Shown here piece after piece: positions 258 to 55,224 of a stretch of 64,000 nt of DNA. The position numbers and the translations under genes are program-made. How positions within the stretch are numbered: the stretch's first letter is position 1; every line of letters starts with the position of its first letter. The stretch covers positions 3,968,001 to 4,032,000 of the forward strand of contig JAPNXP010000013.1 in assembly GCA_028753945.1 (NCBI GenBank), given 5' to 3'. The notes under the pieces were generated by a model. The model saw nothing but the letters and a program-made list of their open reading frames with translations, ran no database searches and was not told the origin of the DNA. The DNA comes from Hexactinellida sp. DTS-2022. Its lineage: Eukaryota > Porifera > Hexactinellida.

Positions 258-577
258 TTTATAATTAGGGTTTTTAATCCCGGGATCCCGGCTTGTTTTA
301 GCCCGGGATTGAATCCCGGGATTCATTTTTCAATCCCGGGATACTGATGATTAATGCAGTTTATATATCACACATTTGTTGTAATGTCTATTGGTTTGTA
401 TATATAGGGTTTCCCATAATTGGATGAAATAGTGATTCAATATATATAACACACTTTGATTAATATATACAAAGTGTGATACTAATAATATGGTCAAATT
501 GAACTTACAAGGACCTTCTGATGTAGTATAAAAGTGTTTGTATGTGACTCTTACACTTCAAATTTACAAATATCTAT

Positions 578-3011
578 ATGATAGCTGAGAAAAACGTTTT
601 TCAAAATTTTGCAGGTGCACCCATTTGGAAATATTTCAAGCGTTCCCTATGTGGGAAATTAGCTCAGTGTAATTCATGTAGTAAACAGCTTAAGTGCGAA
701 GGTGGTTCGACCAAAGGATTGCACATTCATTTAAGAACGATCCACAAAATCGACCTATCTAAACGCACTGATACGAAAGAAATAAGCGCGGAGGTCTCTA
801 ACTCTGAAGTGCCCATCTCAAATGCTAATAGGAAACTAGATATTTACATGAACGACGCCAGTCTATCTGCTGTATTAGCTAGAATGACAGCTTGTGATGG
901 CCTTTCCTTCAACATCTTCACTACATCTCCCGACCTTAGAAAATCTCTTACTGCTCTAGGTCACTCATTACCTAAATCAGTTGTGGGAATAAGAGATCAT
1001 GTGCTCAGATATGGAAGCCAATTACGCGAAAAGGTTAGCAGTTATTTGAGTAATATTAAATCTAAAGGAGGATATTTCAGTCTCACTCTAGATGAATGGA
1101 CATCCTTGCAAAATAAGAGATACCTAAATATAAATATTCATGGGATTGGATTTTTTGGACTCTAGGGTTAATTCGAATAAAGGGACGATTTTCTTCAGAA
1201 GCATGTTCCGGGGCAATCTCACAAAAGCTCAAAGAATTTGGGATAGATTTTGAAACAGATATTATTGCCATCACAACCAGGGTTGGGTTCAAGTACAATT
1301 TACTTAAGTACTTCTGTAATTAAGTACATTTTCTGAGTACTTGTACTTGTACTTAAGTACTTTCACCATTTTTCCGTTGTACTTGTACTTAATTACTTTC
1401 CTCATTTTTCTAAAGTACTTGCACTTGTACTTGAGTACTTGTTACTCGTGACTTTTTTTATCATTCAATATATTTCCAACACACATCATTGATGTTCCTC
1501 AAATCCCATCTCAAATAAAGTAGTGTTACTTAATACTTAGTATATTAGGAATTGTGTTCGTGTCAAGGACTACTGCTAAATCAATTAAATAGATTTGGAT
1601 GATACTATATAAACTATGTATTTAGCAATTTCTACTATTAGTACGAGAGATTTATCTTAAGAGCTTGGGAAGTACTTGTACTTGTACTTAAGTATTTTCC
1701 TAATTTTTTCATTGTACTTGTACTTGTATTGTACTTGAATATCTGAAAAGTAGTAGTACTTGTCTTAAGTACTTTCAAATGTACTTGAACCCAACCCTGA
1801 TCACAACAGATGGGTGTGCAATGATGAAGAAGTTGGGACGAATAATTCCCAATTATCAACAATTATGCTATGCCCATGGGCTCCAGCTTGTAATACAGGA
1901 TGTCTTTTACCAGAAGCAGCCAAAAGCACCTGAAGATCAAGAGGTTTGGTCTAGTACAAGTGAAACTGATAATGAAGACGAAATAGAGATATTCGACGAC
2001 TGTATGGATGATGGGCTAATTGTTTCAGGATCCACTGATCTTCAGGATACTCTCGCCCTAAATTTAGAAATTCTCAGCTTAGTGAACAAGGTACGTCGAA
2101 TTGTGAAAGTCTTCAAGCGTTCGCCATTGAAAAACGAAACCTTGCAAAAATATGTCAAAGAAAGGTATCCAAATGGGCTGAATCTGTTACTTGATTGCAA
2201 GACTCGATGGAGTTCATTGCTCAATATGCTGGAAAGGATAGTTCAGATAAAAATACCAATTCAAAAGGCACTGCTAGATCTTGATGAAAATATTTACGTT
2301 AGCGATCAAGAATTCTCAATGATATCTTCTGTAGTTGAAGCTTTGAGTCCAATTAAGATAGCTCTAGAAGCTCTCTGTCGGAGGGATACTAATTTAATCA
2401 CGGCGGAAGCTACAGTAAAGTTTCTATTGGAAGATCTCCATAAATATAAGTCTCATTATCACACTCGAATCATAGATGCAATAGACCAGCGGATTGTTCA
2501 AGAACGCTACACTGACGTTTCTGTAGTACTTCAATTTCTACACAATCCCTCTTCACAACTTGCAAAAAAGTCTTTAGTCAACACATTTTGTACTAACTTA
2601 TTAACTAGAATAGGAGGAAAAGGAATTGAAGACCATGAAGGAGCCTACCCGGTACCCGTTTCATCTAATCCCACTGAAGATATTCCTGACGATGATGATA
2701 TGCCTCTTGCGAAAAAATTACAATTAGCGATTGACGCATCTATGCGAAAACCACAAGATATACTAGTACAACGCTCTCTCTCAACTATGTTGAAATATGA
2801 AATCTTGATTGGGCAACAAACAGGAAAAAGAGGTTATCATCTAGAACAAGCATATCAAATGCTGTTAACAATTCCCGCAACCTCAGTTGAAGCAGAACGT
2901 GCATTTTCATCCTCAGGATATCTATGCAACAAGTTAAGAACAAGGCTGAAAGATAGCACTTTAGACACACTTGTATTTATTAGGAACAACCTGAAAAAAG
3001 ATAAGAAATAG
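578..3011 (+). pseudogene. hAT transposase, frameshifted and interrupted
   Basis: The first part (578-1165) starts with a BED-type zinc finger: a tryptophan in PIWKYF, CNSC, then HLRTIH. It continues into the first RNase H-like strand (SLTLDEWTS). A one-base frameshift near 1150-1165 ends that frame; the next frame continues the same protein to 1277. The insertion at 1278-1799 then splits the codons before TTDGCAMMKKLGR, and the frame resumes to 3011. The C-terminus has the hAT dimerisation region (TSVEAERAFSSSG, then KLRTRLKDSTLDTLVFIRNN). Transposase acts in the nucleus by DDE chemistry. Apart from one frameshift and one insertion it is well preserved, so loss of function is probably fairly recent. 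Confidence 0.9.
1278..1799. mobile_element. Non-autonomous hAT-type MITE inside the hAT transposase gene
   Basis: A 20-bp perfect terminal inverted repeat, CAGGGTTGGGTTCAAGTACA, bounds 522 bp with no coding potential. The perfect 8-bp target duplication ATCACAAC lies at 1270-1277 and 1800-1807. Most of the interior is repeats of ACTTGTACTT and ACTTAAGTACTT. Removing the insert and one target copy restores the hAT reading frame at AITTDGC. Confidence 0.93.
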
Positions 3012-4136
3012 AGATGTTAATTCTATATTCATTATTGATTATTAATGTTATTTCCCTAATTCATAAATAGTCACGTTATATTAAACTATATACAAATACA
3101 AGCATACCAATTCTTTAAATTACTAATCCCGGGATCCCGGGATTCAGAATTTGTCAATCCCGAAATCCCGGGATTGGAATTTTAGACCGGGATTAAAAAC
3201 CCTATTTATAATCAATATTAGGAGTATATAACCACACTCCAACCGCGAAGCGGTTGGTGTGTGGTTGTGTTCTGCCGCGAAGCGCGCTATTATTTTATTA
3301 ATTTATTAATTATTTAACACCATTTATGTACAGCAAAATAAATTAAGTTCAATTATTTGCAATTATTATTAATTTTGATTTAATTTCCTACCATATTTGA
3401 ATTCAGCGCACTCGATAACCCCAATAATCTAATTGGAACCGTCTCTATAAGTTAAACACAGAGCGAATTAATTAGAATTAAATATGTCCTGTATCCATTG
3501 TGCAAGAATATTCTAAGCAGAAAATAAATATAATCACATAATCTGTCGTTGTTATGGAAAGTAAAATCTTAGTTTTCAATTGGAAAATAGAAGCCTAACC
3601 GATCTCACAGCTTGAATCAATATTATAATAACGCATTGAAACAATAGAATTAGATTTAACACTTTAATTGGACTGAAGTGTTAGTAAACAAAGGAAATTT
3701 GAAACTCAATTGTGGCACAAACTAAGTACAATTTGAAAATTCGTGCACTGTGAAAAGGTGTAGAATTTAATTCTATATCGAATGCATATAAATTGAATTT
3801 TCGCGAACTATTTATTGTTCCTTTTCTAACATTGAATAGGTGTAAAAATGTGTCCAAAATATGTAATAAAATATCGTGACCCCAGGTGCACATCTGTAAC
3901 CCATGAGACACATATCCTGAAAATTTGGGCTCTTAGTTAGTAAACTCTGTTCTGTGGAGGATCTACGGACCAATAATATTAATAACCCTCCTTCCTATTA
4001 TAAACTATGTACTGACATATCTCACCCCATAGCTTAGTATTCGGATATAAGTTTGGCAGATACCTGAAGAGACAGGTTTTCGTCTGCACCGATGACTACA
4101 CAGATCCCATGCTCGTATTTATGCGACTTTTGTCCT

Positions 4137-11290: not shown

Positions 11291-11295
11291 CATTT

Positions 11296-11324
11296 CACAG
11301 TGGTCTAAAATCGCATTTAGTAAA
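11296..11324 (+). promoter_or_regulatory. Left Transib terminus, RSS-like
   Basis: It starts CACAGTGGTCTAAAATCGC and then ATTTAGTAAA. The first nine bases equal the other end. Most later differences between the ends are transitions. This is the expected transposase cleavage and binding site. Confidence 0.85.
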
Positions 11325-11825
11325 CTTTAGGTATCTGTGTAAATCCTAGCGACACATAATGTATTATTTACATATGGGTTATCAATACTTGTGAATAGAT
11401 CCCTAATTTTAAAAAGTTGGTAGGATTTATATTTTTGGAGTTATGACATCATTGTCACCTTCGACGATTTTCGAAAATTTGCAAAACCAAATGTTACTTC
11501 GCCAATATTATATATTTTTGTTTCAAAATTGACTTGATCGTGGCTCTATTTATGTTTTATGCTATGGCACTATTATTTTCTCATAAACTTCAACTCGTCT
11601 TTGGATGATTACATCATCATGATTATACAAAATTTATTATAATTGATTACCTGTAACATTTGCAAAGATTGGCTATTTGTTATACGAAATTCCTAATCGT
11701 ACAATTTCCGACCAACAAGTTATTTAACCAAAGAGCACTATTTGAATATTTGTGTAAGTTACAGTGTGAATATATTTGAATATCACTAAATTCATCTATT
11801 CTAGATTTCTACGAAAATCTTTTTC

Positions 11826-13964
11826 TCAATCTGCATTGGTAGAAATTGTTAATGAAGAAATTAGATTCTCAATGTTTGAGGTTTGTTGACTTTCTATCTT
11901 GCATTTCATTCTCTCGGTATGCCCTGATTGACCACATCTTGCACAAAATAAATTCCTCCGATATGATACCAGTACAGGGTCGCTTTGTGATGATAGTCTC
12001 ACAAAAATATCAATAATATTACTTTCAAAGTTGTTCTTACGCGATAAATTCTCTCTGTATTTTCGAACTAATTTGTTACAGGATTCTGTCCCTTCTTCTG
12101 AAAATGATTTCAACCCGTATCCTGAATTAGAGTCTCGAATAAGTTCTTCCGAGTGTGCCAGAAGCTTGTGTAAGGTAGGCGTGATGCTCGCCCATGGAAA
12201 GGAATCCAGCACTAAAAGATATGTTTCTTTACACAGTTTTCCCAAATCTGCGGTGTTTATTAATTGGCTAGAATTAAAAATCCTTAAAATCGCAGAAAGT
12301 TGAGTATGTACTTTTGATAATGCAGAACGGTTTTCGACAGCTATCAATGATAGAACACATTCGATGAAATTTGTATCATCTGAAAACGCCCTTCTTGCAA
12401 CATTTCCCGTCGAGGTTGTTCCACCACTTGTGTCTGGTATATCAACTTTCAATCCGGTCTTTTCTTGCACTATTCTCTGAACAATCTTCATTGAATCTTT
12501 GATATCTGTAGTAGTGGTGGACCATTTCAACTTTCCAATATGCAAATGGTATACTAAAAGATTGAACCACCTAAAAATACACGTGTAAGAGTGAAGTGGA
12601 GAAGCAGCAATGATATTTACCTTAGAAATAGGCTGGTGAGTTAAATTATATCGGTCGTTAGATGGAAGTGAAAAGAATCCCTTTATATCTTCCAGCTCTC
12701 CAAATAACTGAATCGCATCAGTAATTGTTCTGTTTATTGGGAAGCCGTCTTCGATTAAATCCCTATCTTTTAGATCATCATGAGTAGCAGTACACATTTG
12801 GCAACTGGCTCCTCCAGCCCCAGATAATATTGCTGCCATCTTCCCGTCGAACATAGAACGAATAATTTCCACATTAACAGCGCCATTCTTTAGAGAAATC
12901 CCATTTTGTAGTTGTTCTGTCTCGGGATTAATTAAATCTTCCATGAATAAACGGATATTCTTTTCACATTCTCTTGCAGCACAAAGGAATATTGGTCGTT
13001 GAGAAAAAGGCGAGTTGGGGTATTTATTCTGCCAAACTAATCTGTTTGATGATGTAGAAATAGAAATCGGCTTGAAACAGAAGAGGATGAAGTTTTTGGT
13101 AGTAGTGTTAGTGTTCATTTGATTGTATATGGTATGACAACCGCTACCATCCAAACCATCTGCTATGCGGAATTTGAGTGGGAATTCTTCAATATTAAGT
13201 GGACTCAAAGTTGTAAGAATCCTTTCAAGAGTTTGTTGGACTTGAAGATAGTAGGGGGTTTGTACACCAATCGGTTGTTGAAGATTTGGGTATAGTTGTA
13301 TCGATTCTCGTGATATCAATATATTCCTTAAATCTATCACTTTACTGTGAGAGGGAAAGTGTATATTCTCTGTCAACAAAGTTTGGCGAAGTTGTGTGTA
13401 TTTCCTTCTTCCCATTTCAAGCATATCAAGCAAGAATAATGCCTTGTCTACAGGTACATAGCTCAAATTTATCCCACTAAATCCACCCTTACTGATAATC
13501 TCCTTTGCTATCTTAGCAGTTTTTCGATTATCACTCTCATTAGCTAATAGTTGCAATACTAAAGCTGCAATTTCTACAGGAGTAGAACCCTCTATAATAT
13601 ACGTTTCTCTCACTTGTTCTAGGAGGAAGGATAGCCTCAATCGCTGCTGTTGTAACTGAAGAGAAAATAGATCCTTCGTTACTCTCGGATTTACCAAAAC
13701 AGAAGAGGTATTTGGTATGGATCTTGATTCCCATGGAATTTCGTGATTCCACCATTCAGTATTCAATGTATCAACAATGTTCTTCTTACTTTTTTTGATG
13801 TTGGTTTTGATCTTGTTCAAAAAAGAAATAACCGATTCAAGTTTTTCTTCATCAAGATTTAACAGTTCCAAAATTTTAGAACTCGTGCAAGGAATGTCAA
13901 ACTCATTCTGTATCAGAATTTGCGCTAAATCGCGACGATTTTTCAGGACTGGACCCTCAGCCAT
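11826..13964 (-). CDS. Transib/RAG1-like DDE transposase, intact
   Basis: The protein has 712 residues, starts at ATG 13964 and has no stop or frameshift. The DDE core is complete. The first Asp is in FRIADGLDGSGCH (D269). The second is in SMFDGKMAAILSG (D373), followed after 14 residues by the zinc pair C388xxC391 (SCQMC). SPLHSYTCIFRW lies at 455-466. The pair H599/H604 (TLHKLLAH) comes next, and the catalytic Glu is in SEEGTESCNK (E624). The order and spacing mirror RAG1 D600, D708, C727/C730, H937/H942 and E962 (SEGNESGNK). The C-terminus adds a zinc knuckle, C674-x2-C677-x4-H682-x5-C688. The N-terminal ~250 residues look helical, with no RING or other finger I can recognise. It should cut at CACAGTG ends by a nick-hairpin mechanism (family knowledge). 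No RAG2-like kelch gene lies nearby. Whether it is Transib proper or a separate RAG1-like lineage needs a tree. Confidence 0.93.
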   Translation of the reverse strand: MAEGPVLKNRRDLAQILIQNEFDIPCTSSKILELLNLDEEKLESVISFLNKIKTNIKKSKKNIVDTLNTEWWNHEIPWESRSIPNTSSVLVNPRVTKDLFSLQLQQQRLRLSFLLEQVRETYIIEGSTPVEIAALVLQLLANESDNRKTAKIAKEIISKGGFSGINLSYVPVDKALFLLDMLEMGRRKYTQLRQTLLTENIHFPSHSKVIDLRNILISRESIQLYPNLQQPIGVQTPYYLQVQQTLERILTTLSPLNIEEFPLKFRIADGLDGSGCHTIYNQMNTNTTTKNFILFCFKPISISTSSNRLVWQNKYPNSPFSQRPIFLCAARECEKNIRLFMEDLINPETEQLQNGISLKNGAVNVEIIRSMFDGKMAAILSGAGGASCQMCTATHDDLKDRDLIEDGFPINRTITDAIQLFGELEDIKGFFSLPSNDRYNLTHQPISKVNIIAASPLHSYTCIFRWFNLLVYHLHIGKLKWSTTTTDIKDSMKIVQRIVQEKTGLKVDIPDTSGGTTSTGNVARRAFSDDTNFIECVLSLIAVENRSALSKVHTQLSAILRIFNSSQLINTADLGKLCKETYLLVLDSFPWASITPTLHKLLAHSEELIRDSNSGYGLKSFSEEGTESCNKLVRKYRENLSRKNNFESNIIDIFVRLSSQSDPVLVSYRRNLFCARCGQSGHTERMKCKIESQQTSNIENLISSLTISTNAD

Positions 13965-14591
13965 AGTTGTTATGCAGATGTAGTAGTTTCAAATGCTTTG
14001 TTAGTTCTATTTTATGCACTATATAAAAGAATGAGGCCCTTAAAACATATCTTTGCCATTGTAGCGTAACCTAGCAACGAATACTTGACTATGGAATGTA
14101 ACAATTTTTATAATGTTGCGCATCGAAGCGCATCTTATAATTCAAATATGTTAATTATATGGCATTACAGGGTCAGCATACAAAAATTCAGATTGGTCAA
14201 AGGTGGTCTTTATTTTTGCGGCTAATTTGAAACTTAAAATATCATAATGTTATAATATTTTCCAACTCCATCAAAGTCGAAGCTAAAAATTTCACAAACT
14301 AGATTTGAAATCAAACATTTTGGTTCCAAAATGTTACTTTAGAGTCAATACTATGTACTAAAATAGTTAAATGTATTTATATCTTACTGAGGTAAAAATT
14401 ACGTATGTACCTTTTAGCGCTGTTTTCAAACCGCAGAATATGAATCCAAATGTATCGACAATCCACATCATACTTCGAAGTCGTTTTGTATTTCTAAGCT
14501 TTCAATTCGTACCAAATTTGTTATGCATACTATTTAGACATCTAGGAAGCAAATCACGATGCTTTTTTGCGTTTTGGGGTTGACGATTTTT

Positions 14592-14620
14592 TTGCCAAAT
14601 ACGTGCCCCAAACCACTGTG
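14592..14620 (-). promoter_or_regulatory. Right Transib terminus, RSS-like
   Basis: Read inward it is CACAGTGGTTTGGGGCACG then TATTTGGCAAA, followed by an A-rich run (AAAAAAATCG) that recalls an RSS nonamer (inference). It is paired with the terminus at 11296. Confidence 0.82.
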
Positions 14621-15160
14621 CATTTACCACAACCTACATTGGGAATTCGCCCCCTCCCCCCCCCAATATTGGTGCACCTCATAATTTTATCCTCCCTAAA
14701 TCAGCAAAATATTGTTGTCATAAATTGTTAGTAATACTCAATGATATTTGAAAATCCTCTTCACCCCAGAAAATTTTTCTCGCTCGCTGCGCTTGCTCGT
14801 CTATAAATCCATGTATACTTAGATTAACTTTGTGCATAGCCTACTTTATATAAGGCCTACCATCAAATGTACCATGGATGTAGTGTACGATATAAACACA
14901 GTTCAATGTTTTAAACTTCATTTAGAAATTAATCTGTTATTCTAAATAATTCTAGTAAATTAATAGATTTTCTCTATTGAGTCTTTATAGCTACTTAACA
15001 ACAATGATAAGAATACATAAAGAATAATGTGGGTTCAAATAACAATAATAATAACAATAATAATAATAGAAGAGTAGCCTTCTGGTGTATTTCATTAATG
15101 TGAGAACTTCAGTTTTCGCTTTTCTATACCTTTAGATTCAACAGCGGAGTTATAATTTTA
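14621..15160. other. Repeat-derived sequence without a gene
   Basis: About 14640-14890 contains C-rich runs, GCTCGCTGCGCTTGCTCG and a stretch resembling part of the repeat at 21540-21600 (GCCTA, TATATAAGGCCTACCATCAAA). It is probably a decayed hAT MITE. Short AATAAT repeats lie near 15040-15070. Confidence 0.45.
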
Positions 15161-32329: not shown

Positions 32330-33481
32330 GCCAGTTGGACCTCCTACCGATTTTAATCGGTAAACAATGGCTGGTTTAACAAACCACTGATGGCATAACA
32401 AACTTCTGATGCCGTAAAACAACACTAATATTAATAACAAATAATGCAACAAAAAGTATAATCTACACAAGGTCAAATAATCCACAATTATGGTGGATTA
32501 GTCAAGCCTCCAAAGGGAAAATTTGGTGGCTTAAGAAAGATTTTTGGTGGCTAATGGCAACAAACCACCTAATTTGTCGAGCAAAGCTAATTACTGATAG
32601 ACAATATGCCAATATCTTCCTTACATGTGACTTCCTATTCGACAATAATACATTTCTTAAGTCTAACTCTAACTGAAGTAGCGAATTTGAGATAATGACC
32701 ATATATGGAAAAGGTGAGAAAACCTCAAAACTCACATTCCACAAATATTTGAGATTAGGCAATATGACCAATGGACTCCAAAAATATGACTTCCTATACG
32801 ACTATAATACATTTCCTGTGTCTAACATTAGCAGATTACGAGATATCAATAAGACACAATGGACCCAAGTTCCAGGACCCGAGCTGGCAGCCTACAGTCC
32901 TTTATTAAAGTAGTATATGAGTCAATCCCTTTCAAAATGAGCACGTTATCTTTAAAAATAAAGGAGATCTCTTAATTCTGAGTCCAATTATGAACTCAGT
33001 GCAGTTATTTACATCTAGTCTAATGGATAAAATGTGAAAAATCTTTTTTTGATAAAACCGCGAAAATGTTCACACCTTGGGTGGCCTGAAGGCCAGAAAA
33101 GCATATTTTAGAAGAAAAATTGCATATAATTTTATACATCCTACTATTATATATCTATTTTGAAAAACGCTAAGGGATCAGATCAGGATTTAGGAGATAT
33201 TGAATTTACACCATTCGTACAAATCGGCGGAAATGTTTAAACATCTGAAAAATTAAAAAAATTAAAATGCTAAAAAAAAAATTAGCACAAAGGGGATACT
33301 TGGGGACTTTTAGTATATTGCTCAATAGGGCATTTTGCAACTATCCTGCAAAAATTAGCTCGATACTATTTATTTCCATGTTGGGCTCATTTTTTAGCTA
33401 ATGCTCCTGGACTATAAGAGAAGCACCACATTATTCCACAAAATCCTTCATCTCGAAGCATACAAGTGCTCTAACACTGCC

Positions 33482-33699
33482 CAGGCCTTCGTCTAGCCCT
33501 AAGATATACGCGCACCCTACGTGATGTTGATTTTACAATCGCGCACCCCAAATTTACCAAAAAAATACGAAAATTAGTATTATAAATATCTGGAGCGCAC
33601 TGCGCACCCAAATTAATTCCAATTTCAAGCACCCTTCCAGCATTTTTCCTTAAAATTACGCACCCCTGGATGCGCCCCGCGCACCCAGATGAAGGGCTG
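33482..33699. mobile_element. hAT-type MITE in the P relic
   Basis: The ends CAGGCCTTCGTCT and (reversed) CAGCCCTTCATCT are similar. The flanks ACACTGCC and ATACTGTC differ by two transitions, an aged 8-bp duplication. GCGCACCC repeats run throughout. Confidence 0.75.
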
Positions 33700-34106
33700 A
33701 TACTGTCAATAGACTCTGATTTAAGATTACGCAAAAGTCGTTCACTAGGTAAGGGGATGTGTTGATGTAATAATCTATATGCGGCATGAGATGTGTAACG
33801 TAATTGGAGAGCGAATCTACTAACATGTGAAGAATATTTACAAGACCAATAGCATTCTAATATACTAAGGCAATGGCACTCATGTTTTCTTTTGGACCAT
33901 GGACTGGTTAAACGAGTCATTTCCATATGCCTTTGATTTGCAAATTTGAGTCCCCTATAGATCCCCTCATTATTGTATATTGTTAGCATCATTATGTCAT
34001 AGCATACTGATGTCAGGCCTCACAATCGAATAATATTTTTGAACCTGAATTCAGTGGAATGGGAACTTATTAAACAACCACAAGATATTTTTATGTTCAA
34101 TTTTAT

Positions 34107-46068: not shown

Positions 46069-47541
46069 TCATAATTCGGTGTGAATGTATTGATCTTTAA
46101 CTCCAGGTTTATGTTGAATTACATGATCTACTGCTTTCAGTACGAGTCGAACAAAGGCCTGCTGTTTAAAGGAATAATTTGTAAACTTCTTATGAGCACC
46201 TAGAGTCGGGTGGTGTCCCTCATCCTGCGGAAACAGAGCAGCTGGCTCCTCCCACGTTAAGTACTTCACACCTCTTATAGCCGCGAGGTCGCGGTAGCAG
46301 GCAGCATCATTGCAGTTGTACAGTTCTATAACTGATCCCCAGTCAGGGAGGAATAGGAGGTGTGTCAGTCCCGCTCCGTGCATAGTGATAAATACATCGC
46401 TATTGTGTGTCTGTTCTAATTGCTGGAGAAAGGATAGCTTCCGTGGGTTGTACTCAACAACCGTTAGATTGATAGCTCCAACTGTTTTGAGAGTAGACAC
46501 CAGTTCCTCCTGGTTCAAAATGTTCCTGAACTTAGTGTTCCTGGGTACGAGAGTTACCTGTACCTGCTGGTCCAATGGCCTGCGGGCGATGTTGAGGCGA
46601 GAGAGGGCATGTTTTGAGAACGCCTTCATGAGCCCGCTCCCGTAGCACTGGGGAACCAGAGGCATGTTGAAGAAGAGACCGTAGAACATCCGAGGCAGTA
46701 GAGAAAACATTGCTTCTCGGATACACACAGTTTTTCCAGCGAATTCTGATAAAGATCTTATAGGATGGCGTGTGAACACTTGCCACATAGACTCGAACAG
46801 GTCCTGGTAATACATGGTGCCAGTATCCCAGCGTATCAATTCCAAATTTCTGGAGAAGGAGCCGTTCATGTGCTGAGCAGCGTAGAGGTTCACAAAGTCA
46901 CAGAAGTGGTGGTACATATTAACACCAGCGTCTAGCTTCATAAATGTCACTTGTCGATCTATCGTGACGTCACACTGGTCCTGTCCCAATGAAATGGACC
47001 TGAACAGTCTGAGCTCTCTGTGCCAGGACTGTAGAGCTCCTCCTTGCTCAGCGTTACTCTCAATCTTCTTTCTATTCACACGGCAGTCTCCTCCTACCAC
47101 AACATGCTCACTTATATCCTCCCTCAACCGATCTTTCGTATCAAACTGGTACTCTCTAAAGTCAAGCACCAGGTGCCTAGCGTGGCAATAGCGCATGTTG
47201 GAGCTGCACATGAGGAAGCCCTGATGGGTACTATCAGGAACGCAGTAGTCGCTTATGGTTGATAGAAAATCCTGGACATACCCGAAGTCTGCTTGTCTCC
47301 AAAACTTATCGACTTTCTCTTCCATTGTGCTAACCCATGGCTTGGGGTTTCCCTCGCAAACAGGCTTATCAAATAATTGCTTTTCATAAGAACAGTTCGC
47401 TTCGTACCCCCAGCACCATGGATGAGACACAGAAAGACCTAATTCACACAAACCAGTTTCTTCTTCTACACATAGATTCGCTGGAGAAGTAAGTCGACAG
47501 GAGAAGAATACTGCTAGTGCTAAGCAGCTGTAGAGTTTCAT
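46069..47541 (-). CDS. EOGT: EGF-domain-specific O-GlcNAc transferase (EOGT)
   Basis: A 490-residue intact protein from ATG 47541. The N-terminus is a signal peptide (MKLYSCLALAVFFSCRLTSP) and the last four residues, HTEL, are a KDEL-type ER-retention signal like HDEL of vertebrate EOGT. SNMRYCHARHLVLDFREYQF (about 114-133) and the GT61 core DVFITMHGAGLTHLLFLPDW (about 389-408), then VIELYNC, match EOGT closely. Length is close to the human 527. EOGT adds O-linked GlcNAc to EGF repeats of secreted and membrane proteins such as Notch ligands and receptors, in the ER lumen. No intron interrupts it. The ~170-bp gap to the FKBP-like gene is too short for much regulatory sequence but does not prove co-transcription. 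Confidence 0.93.
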   Translation of the reverse strand: MKLYSCLALAVFFSCRLTSPANLCVEEETGLCELGLSVSHPWCWGYEANCSYEKQLFDKPVCEGNPKPWVSTMEEKVDKFWRQADFGYVQDFLSTISDYCVPDSTHQGFLMCSSNMRYCHARHLVLDFREYQFDTKDRLREDISEHVVVGGDCRVNRKKIESNAEQGGALQSWHRELRLFRSISLGQDQCDVTIDRQVTFMKLDAGVNMYHHFCDFVNLYAAQHMNGSFSRNLELIRWDTGTMYYQDLFESMWQVFTRHPIRSLSEFAGKTVCIREAMFSLLPRMFYGLFFNMPLVPQCYGSGLMKAFSKHALSRLNIARRPLDQQVQVTLVPRNTKFRNILNQEELVSTLKTVGAINLTVVEYNPRKLSFLQQLEQTHNSDVFITMHGAGLTHLLFLPDWGSVIELYNCNDAACYRDLAAIRGVKYLTWEEPAALFPQDEGHHPTLGAHKKFTNYSFKQQAFVRLVLKAVDHVIQHKPGVKDQYIHTEL

Positions 47542-48490
47542 GAAATATACTAAATTCAGTCATGAGAAGCTAAGGTAACTTTATGTTTAAGTTTAATATA
47601 CTATAAAGCACTGAAGGAATGGTTGGAAAGTAAAACATTTTAAATTGTTTATCCGCTCTATGCGTGAATCCTTTAAATTGCAGTAGGCAGTGGCCTACCT
47701 TTACAAAATGCCGCCCGTGGTGAAATTAGGCCCTATAATATAAATAACTTGTTTATCATCCCCGTCCATCCCAATTTTTAACCTCCGTTCGGATATATTT
47801 TATTATTATCTTATGAAGATAACCGTACAAAATATTTGCTAGAAACTTGTGTAAAGTACTCCTAATGTATCAATATTTAAGGAAAAGCCTCGTCTAGTGC
47901 AGAGGGGCGTCCTGGCCATACAAGCCAGCGGGGAATCAACGCTGACCCCCCTGGCCAGGACGCCCCTGGTCCAGTGAGGTTGGAAGATGAAACAACTTAA
48001 AACGAAATTGCCTATTTGAGGAAAATTGCTAAAAAATAAATCAATATAACACCGATAGACTTTAATAAATAATTAAAATCATACAAACTAGAGAACCCAG
48101 AGATTTGGTGCTTGATCAGAAATCCCGGGTGTGGGAAAACCTTTCTTTCTAAGAGGATAGCATTAAGATTTAGTCAGTATGAGTTGACTTATATTTCCTA
48201 TTCAATTGCTATCCCGTGTCGCAATAGTGATTGACATTAAATGGAATCCCCCTCGTCGAAGAAAACAAATAAGTTACACCTAAATTTGTCCAAGATTGGC
48301 TGTGTTTGGGATTACCCGTGGGCCGTGGCATCTGATTGGGCCAGAGATCTAGCAAAGCATCTAGCAAAGTCTGATGAAGAGGGGGGGGGGGGGGGGGGGG
48401 CTCTTATTGATAATTGATGGAATGGACGTATTTACGAAAAAGATTCCATCTGAAAAGTCATTACTTTACTTGATGTTATCTAGACAGACA
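47542..48490. other. Upstream region of EOGT, no gene
   Basis: Contains one tiny MITE (47900-47968) and a G homopolymer at 48382-48400. Confidence 0.55.
47900..47968. mobile_element. Tiny hAT-type MITE, 69 bp
   Basis: Inverted ends CAGAGGGGCGTCCTGGCCA / CAGGGGCGTCCTGGCCA; flanks GTCTAGTG and GTCCAGTG differ by one base. Confidence 0.78.
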
Positions 48491-53730: not shown

Positions 53731-53988
53731 TAATATATGCATTTTGTACAATAGCATGATGTATTATCAGGTCCGTATGGTTCATTTAGATTCTGAGAAA
53801 GGGAAAATGGTCATTTGGATGATAATAATAATATAATAAATAGTTTTTATTGGGACTAATGTCTTCAATTAAAATCCAACAATTTTAACGTGAATATACG
53901 CAAAGGTATAAATTTTTTAAATATAATGGTCAGCAATTATTTATAGTAAAATAGGAGCGCACTCCAGTGAGCAGCAAATTTAATTGAA

Positions 53989-55224
53989 ATGACAACTGAG
54001 ACTATAAAAGAGATACGGAACGAGACAATTATAGAGCTGGAAAGGATTCGAGGAGAAGTGAAGGTAGCAAAAGAGGAGTTACGTGCCAAATTTGACTCTT
54101 ATTTCAAAGTGCTGCGTGAGAAACACCTCGAAATGTTGGCACAGTTGGATGAAGTGGTCCGTGTGGCAGAGACACATGTGGAAGACAGACAGGTGAAGCT
54201 GAATCAGCTTAAATTCACCAAGGCTGAGGTATTATACAATCTCCAACATAATGAACTCAATGAGACTCTAGTAAATGTGTCTCGAGAGTTGGATGAGAAA
54301 ATTCGGGGAGTAGAGGCGAGTGTGGATCGGATTCCATCTGTGTGGGTCGAGTGGCGTGACGAGTGGTTTGAACGTGGCATGGATGAACTGTGCTGCTTGT
54401 GTGAATGTGTATCTTACATCAACAGACACAGCCCAGTGTGGTCTGGTGTTACTAAAGGAGGTGGGCAAATGGAAATAAGCAATCCTGCCGGTTTGTCAAT
54501 AGACAGAGATACTGGAAATATATTTGTTTGTGATTATCTATCTGCTAGGATTCAGGTGTTTAGCAAAAAAGGCTCTTATTTAAGAACAATTGAATCAAAA
54601 GGAATGACTCTCCCTTCCTCCATAACTACCTCACTCCATCACATATTTATCAGCTGTGAGTATCCACATAGTATATACAAACTAGATAAATTGTCTGGAG
54701 ATATTCTATGTTGTGTCCAAACAGACTGTGCCATGTCCGGTTTGTCAGTTGAAACAGAAACTATGTATGTAGGAATGTATGCAACTAACGAAATATCTCA
54801 TTTCTGTATTGAGAATTTTAAGCTTGTCAATATGACTGCACTTAACTCCATTCATATAACACAGAACACTTCAGTAATCGGTCTACAATTAGTTCCCTCT
54901 CTATTTTTAGTCCTGTTTAAAGAGTGCAAATATCCTATCCAATCATTTTCCAGAGCTGGGATACTAATCAATTTGATTGTGTCACAGAAACAGCTGATTA
55001 GTGGTGAGTATTTCTGCATAGACAGACACATTAATATTATCACTAGTGACACGGGAGCTCATAACATAAAGGTGTTTAATAAAGAGGGACAACTCACTAT
55101 TACAATTGGACAAAAAGGAACAGGACTTGGAGAGTTTAATGGTCCTAGAGGGATATATATAAGCAAGGAGGGACTAATTGTTATTGTTGATAGTAAGGAA
55201 TCAAGAAAACTACAATTTTTTTGA
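53989..55224 (+). CDS. Coiled-coil NHL-repeat protein (TRIM2/3/71-like, no RING)
   Basis: A 411-residue intact protein from ATG 53989. Residues 1-125 are charged and helical (ETIIELERIRGEVKVAKEEL), a coiled coil like the one after the B-boxes in TRIM proteins. From ~160 NHL/beta-propeller blades follow: NPAGLSIDRDTGNIFVCDY, RIQVFSKKGSYLRTI, later IKVFNKEGQLTITIG and EFNGPRGIYISKEGLIVIVD, ending RKLQFF. No RING or B-box precedes it within the frame or just upstream, so it may be a RING-less family member or begin in an earlier unseen exon. Such proteins act as cytoplasmic scaffolds or in ubiquitin ligation; function here is not predictable. Middle blades are divergent. Confidence 0.85.
   Translation: MTTETIKEIRNETIIELERIRGEVKVAKEELRAKFDSYFKVLREKHLEMLAQLDEVVRVAETHVEDRQVKLNQLKFTKAEVLYNLQHNELNETLVNVSRELDEKIRGVEASVDRIPSVWVEWRDEWFERGMDELCCLCECVSYINRHSPVWSGVTKGGGQMEISNPAGLSIDRDTGNIFVCDYLSARIQVFSKKGSYLRTIESKGMTLPSSITTSLHHIFISCEYPHSIYKLDKLSGDILCCVQTDCAMSGLSVETETMYVGMYATNEISHFCIENFKLVNMTALNSIHITQNTSVIGLQLVPSLFLVLFKECKYPIQSFSRAGILINLIVSQKQLISGEYFCIDRHINIITSDTGAHNIKVFNKEGQLTITIGQKGTGLGEFNGPRGIYISKEGLIVIVDSKESRKLQFF

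Follow-up and report, generated by a model that had tools for sequence, protein, structure and literature searches.

A window of 64,000 nucleotides from the genome assembly of Hexactinellida sp. DTS-2022 (GCA_028753945.1, contig JAPNXP010000013.1, positions 3,968,001 to 4,032,000; all window positions below are counted from its first letter) was found to contain a 3325-bp element on the minus strand (11296–14620) which is very probably an autonomous cut-and-paste Transib DNA transposon of the RAG1-like 'Subgroup I' type in an apparent glass-sponge genome, moving by the mechanism outlined below. Transib Subgroup I is characterized by a zinc-domain segment like that of RAG1-like proteins (RAG1L), a CTT1 tail and asymmetric ends; Subgroup II is of the HzTransib type, with ends of either kind (Tao et al., 2022; PMC9435367). 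The same study proposes that Subgroup I Transibs link Transib to RAG1L as intermediates. The element is a real and young Transib of this RAG1L-like subgroup, probably functional, in an apparent glass sponge.

The element is flanked by a perfect 5-bp target-site duplication, CATTT (11291–11295 and 14621–14625), and terminates in CACAGTG (11296–11302) and CACTGTG (14614–14620), all as described in an original prediction made for this DNA; the ends read CACAGTGG. Terminal inverted repeats were assigned at the gene-3' end (11296–11340, beginning CACAGTGGTCTAAAATCGCATTTAGTAAACTTTAGG) and the gene-5' end (14576–14620, beginning CACAGTGGTTTGGGGCACGTATTTGG). CACAGTG by itself is not rare in the window, with 7 occurrences seen against 3.65 expected and at least 7 in 6 of 100 shuffles; the call rests on the inverted CACAGTGGT ends and the 5-bp duplication together, recurring at other copies. 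Inverted ends starting with CAC and a 5-bp target duplication are features of the Transib superfamily. The original prediction had also described the element as having no nested insertions; none is evident inside it, but its own target is a repeat.

The transposase is encoded by a single-exon open reading frame (ORF) of 712 amino acids with no internal stop (11826–13964, minus strand), as had been predicted. When the window protein was aligned to HzTransib, BbRAG1L and mouse RAG1, the catalytic triad fell at D272 (13149–13151), D373 (12846–12848) and E627 (12084–12086), all on the minus strand and equivalent to RAG1 D600, D708 and E962 (mouse numbers deduced from the residue ranges of the chains). 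D373 agrees with the set named originally (D269, D373 and E624), while D269 and E624 are ruled out as catalytic residues by this alignment, their labels being off by three. Both the triad and the zinc ligands C388, C391, H599 and H604, which had been named correctly, showed no variation when 12 homologues were aligned with the window protein. In a larger alignment of 65 rows, D373, C388 and C391 were each present in all 65, D272 in 64 (one gap), E627 and H604 each in 51 (14 gaps) and H599 in 54 (10 gaps and one Y). A Pfam scan of the window protein gave no family besides RAG1, and so no RING or N-terminal zinc fingers; the RAG1 score was 20.1, under the cut-off of 25.

The predicted protein shows two Subgroup I traits of Tao et al. 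(2022), namely a long zinc segment and a CCGHC-like knuckle. The zinc-domain segment (residues 392–457; 12594–12791, minus strand) corresponds to the alpha11-alpha12 or RAG2-binding region of RAG1L. Its length between C391 and H458 is 66 amino acids in the window protein and 61–67 in all 45 complete sponge rows, compared with 67 in 7/7 RAG1L rows and 30–32 in 12/12 rows on the HzTransib side. The term sponge rows denotes proteins retrieved with the window protein, mostly without a species name and presumed to be from sponges; the 45 include the window protein, the truncated P0072 is uncounted, and P0073 groups with the HzTransib type.

The C-terminal zinc knuckle CARCGQSGHTERMKC (residues 674–688; 11901–11945, minus strand) is CTT1/CCGHC-like. 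It starts 47 residues past E627 (usually 51 in RAG1L), and its spacing, Cx2Cx3GHx5C, has one residue more than that of the RAG1L knuckle, Cx2Cx3GHx4C (PMC7204232). A knuckle was present in 21 of the 32 usable tails among homologues of the window protein (73 retrieved proteins, 37 with the anchor motif, 32 with a tail of at least 70 amino acids) and in 19 of 21 long RAG1L tails (42 proteins, 28 with the anchor), the two misses being wrong motif anchors. None was found in 88 long HzTransib-type tails (120 of 1278 relatives listed, 104 with the anchor). Profile comparison aligned the window-family knuckle with that of RAG1L. A tree was built with the tail excluded from 45 rows, after four others with a short tail or without the motif had been removed. 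In it, a fully supported branch sets apart each of the three groups (sponge, HzTransib type and RAG1L), and three changes are needed for the knuckle, which is missing from one subclade of the sponge family. An ancestral knuckle lost three times is the simplest story, the direction being unproven in an unrooted tree. The reading of the protein as a hitherto undescribed mosaic, with the core of a Transib and the tail of a RAG1L, was dropped, as this combination is Subgroup I in PMC9435367.

The genome searched comprises 112.4 Mb in 18 contigs and yielded at least 72 protein matches to the transposase (63 of 1001 candidates scored). A second full-length copy, L022, is identical at 3275 of 3322 sites (98%) and has its own duplication, TAACA; its gene is broken by one stop and two gap columns, the protein match being in two pieces. 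Exact matches to the terminal 25-mer number 11 across the genome, whereas its reversed control has none. Thirteen copies of 1404–1417 bp lack nearly the whole gene and have one common deletion junction with a 5-base filler. They represent 11 independent insertions, since L034–L036 have common flanks, and 9 of the 11 carry a perfect in-register 5-bp duplication; in the other two (L034–L036 and L037) the flanks instead match over 6 bases, one base out of register. Copies L026–L029, on contigs C13, C5, C4 and C1, are identical across 1411 bp and bear the duplications TACTG, TTGAG, GTATA and ATATG, with L031 and L032 one base off this group, and the most diverged copies have up to 100 differences in about 1400 sites. 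Because the copies span this range, the gene-deleted form has been mobile over a long period and up to very recent times.

When joined with a single CATTT, the flanks of the window insertion (400 bases in all) matched 40 places (40 of 217 candidates scored) at 84–98% over at least 373 of 400 positions; the element thus lies within an older repeat with at least 40 other copies. The best match, the empty site L047 (C5:4035197-4035590), is about 53 kb distant, in inverted orientation, and has a single CATTT. Its alignment to the filled site spans 401 columns and contains one substitution and two gaps, of 7 bases and 1 base. Beyond it the right flank is 99.3% alike over 1057 bp and the left flank 98.0% over 505 bp, followed by rearranged pieces of 95–98.5%. 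The insertion is thus younger than that duplication, barring gene conversion or misassembly. The sequences show both that insertion produced a 5-bp duplication and that the family has moved very recently. The anticipated second copy with the same termini was recovered in L022, and of the recent activity that had been suggested, recent movement is supported, but the gene of the near copy is broken and the recent burst is one of gene-deleted copies.

These copies also bear on a reading which is unlikely though the strongest of the alternatives, namely that of a fossil element which has stayed intact by chance but has no working transposase left, with another Transib family of the genome having mobilised the young copies. 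Only a single intact gene was found in the window family, the window element differs by 3.7% from the youngest of the gene-deleted copies, and other families, such as L008/L009/L010, have intact genes which are 99.1–99.8% alike. However, the gene-deleted copies bear the window family's own termini, which differ from those of other families past about the first 8–11 bp, and the window insertion is itself young. Under the preferred reading of an autonomous element, the window gene would be expressed and would be the current source of transposase.

The 712-amino-acid transposase would most likely bind both CACAGTGG ends as a dimer and cut them by nicking and hairpin formation via D272, D373 and E627, after which the excised element would be joined to a target staggered by 5 bp, leaving the 5-bp duplication. 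It would most likely also mobilise in trans the dozen or so 1.4-kb copies from which almost the entire gene is deleted. The nick-hairpin chemistry, the DNA contact of the zinc knuckle and the pairing of ends are proposed by analogy with HzTransib, ProtoRAG and RAG.

The element is a Transib transposon and not a RAG-like (RAGL) transposon. As is characteristic of the Transib superfamily, its DDE transposase has homology to the core of RAG1 and an HzTransib-like fold; HzTransib was the best match by sequence among solved relatives (E value 4.9e-26) and ranked top in fold matching. The tree, which is unrooted, contains the window family, the HzTransib type and RAG1L as three fully supported clades, the first two being joined by midpoint only, so that neither the sister pair nor the direction of change can be decided from it. 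The RAG1-like/Transib identity proposed originally is borne out, the protein being homologous to Transib/RAG1, scoring highest with Transib and having no place outside Transib/RAG1 in the tree.

It is improbable that the protein is instead the RAG1L of a RAGL transposon that lost its RAG2-like gene (RAG2L). In favour of that view, the window protein has both the RAG1L-type knuckle and the zinc-domain segment, and fold comparison is compatible with it, template-modelling (TM) scores by query length being 0.60 for BbRAG1L and 0.58 for HzTransib. However, sequence and profile scores rank the HzTransib type above RAG1L. The profile scores of the sponge family are 9.9e-52 to the HzTransib type and 2.4e-30 to RAG1L, compared with 2.7e-18 between the latter two, making the family intermediate between them by this measure. 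RAG1L also forms a separate clade with full support, albeit in an unrooted tree in which the direction of change is unsettled. Besides the transposase, the element has no ATG-started ORF of more than 71 codons and no RAG2-like gene. A mollusc RAG1L query against the genome (72 of 175 candidates scored) gave long Transib-like matches of 23–28% identity, along with short pieces of which none exceeded 40% identity over 107 amino acids. With no RAG2L inside the element and the protein outside the RAG1L clade, membership of the RAGL transposons was rejected. The RAG2 kelch model PF03089 had no match in the genome, but control genomes likewise gave none. Domestication of a Transib as a host gene, to which the intact ORF, the sole one found in its subfamily, might point, is ruled out for practical purposes by the perfect ends with their 5-bp duplication and by the absence of the insertion from the near-identical paralogous site L047, as a domesticated gene would be expected to predate its site.

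The sister families have lopsided ends resembling 12/23 signals, with an offset of 9–10 bp that is close to the 11-bp difference of those signals. Their ends are two-part, consisting of CACAGTGG and about 9 bp followed by a second element near GGAAATAGG, which begins near position 18 in the gene-5' end (short-spacer type) and near 27 in the gene-3' end (long-spacer type). The best shared 10-mer was at offset 9 or 10 in 10 of the 12 elements with both ends, the two exceptions being L017 (14) and the window element (-1). An exact shared 10-mer in L004, L014, L019 and L042 was reached by 0/300 shuffles, the shared 10-mer of L009, L010, L013 and L017 by 4–7 of 300, and that of L003, L005, L046 and the window element by 61–92 of 300, which is not significant singly; L009 and L010 belong to one family. 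For eight of the 12 end pairs, the 5-bp duplication was among the grounds of selection, a choice without influence on the offset; among the remaining four, the duplication is perfect in L042 and L046 and in neither L014 nor L019. L042 has a different second element (GGTCGATTAG), which both of its ends carry with the offset unchanged, as would be expected of an element read by the enzyme.

The window element itself does not show this asymmetry, its best shared 10-mer, at offset -1, being reached by 61/300 shuffles. The second-element positions (14595–14603 at the gene-5' end and 11323–11331 at the gene-3' end) are degenerate, and an ungapped comparison by eye with L003 and L004 indicated that the homologous positions are present but altered. 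Asymmetry of the window element would thus be a matter of its family only.

Several other Transib families of the genome have open genes and near-identical members: L008 and L009 are 99.8% alike over 2784 bp, L009 and L010 99.1% over 3082 bp, and L004 and L006 99.7% over 2415 bp. With open genes and different duplications (AAATG in L009, TAGTA in L010), the L008/L009/L010 family has probably been recently active too. Between families, as in the window element against L003, synonymous changes are close to saturation (391/467 sites), with nonsynonymous changes at 453/1663. A deep-branching Transib lineage, L050 (G000:C2:3226600-3231200, ORF 1116-3212, plus strand), was found with the RAG1L query; it has an open frame of 698 amino acids and at most 30% identity to the family rows in its tree. 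Its zinc segment is long, its 3' end is of the GGAAATAGG type, and it lacks the knuckle.

Among 73 homologous proteins (7999 candidates scored), all 15 with a species name are from the glass sponge Oopsacas minuta, which fits the early animal genome supposed originally. DNA transposons make up 15.44% of the Oopsacas genome (PMC10280926), and a term search of the main text of that paper did not find 'Transib' or 'RAG1'. The searched passages of PMC4411706 and PMC8355894 do not mention sponges, and no report of a glass-sponge Transib was found in the literature searched, which included the main text of Tao et al. A scan of viral contigs found no relatives, and one of bacterial and genome contigs only a fragment, L041 (JABAAK010000070.1, 1-99), from a 'Candidatus Paceibacter' metagenome-assembled genome (MAG). 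Its first 99 bases match the Transib family (73% over 33 amino acids), where the similarity ends, and it is likely a mis-binned sponge fragment; it is a caution where MAG-derived bacterial Transibs serve to root RAG1 trees.

Elsewhere in the window, ORFs with a BED zinc finger and a hAT dimerisation domain (548–3011, plus strand) likely belong to a hAT transposon, and an ORF with a P-element-type helix-turn-helix domain lies at 33474–34019 (minus strand). Probable host genes are a Glycosyltransferase 61 ORF (46072–47559, minus strand) and an NHL-repeat ORF (53971–55221, plus strand).

Transibs and their Subgroup I were known already; what is new here is the host, the recency and the family-wide asymmetry of the ends. 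The chances are about even that glass sponges hold a living Transib population already equipped with the RAG1L-type tail, the segment to which RAG2 binds in RAG, and lopsided ends resembling the 12/23 kind. If so, signal asymmetry and RAG1 architecture would be older than RAG2 capture, and the sponge transposase could be used to test what 12/23-like asymmetry first served. The Transib transposases known to be active are of the HzTransib type, in which the RAG-like features are missing. With an intact, young element and its many sister families together in a compact genome, end spacing and tail structure can be compared across natural variants, and there is a candidate enzyme with which to study how asymmetric ends were paired before RAG2.

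Compared with HzTransib (PDB 6pqn, 6pqx), the element has the same catalytic triad, zinc ligands, CAC ends and 5-bp duplication; however, the zinc segment is 66 amino acids long as against 30 in the HzTransib type, the tails of which are without a knuckle (0/88). ProtoRAG of amphioxus, with BbRAG1L (PDB 6b40), has the same catalytic core, zinc-domain segment and C-terminal knuckle, and its preference for asymmetric ends (PMC8289069) is matched here as a family trait, whereas the window element has no RAG2-like gene and its core is more distant in the tree and in profile scores. AanRAGL of Aureococcus, with end spacings of 13+4 and 13+13 bp (PMC9435367), resembles most sister families in second-element starts of about 18 and 27 but has a RAG2L and unlike second-element sequences. 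There is also a likeness to Transib Subgroup I (ctenophores, Hydra Transib-9 and bacterial records; PMC9435367), one drawn from features. The differences are the knuckle-less subclade, the very recent movement and the apparent glass-sponge host, which is unnamed in the main text of that paper. In common are a single RAG1-like gene, the alpha11-alpha12 segment, the CTT1/CCGHC-like tail, 5-bp duplications and, in the sister families, asymmetric two-part ends.

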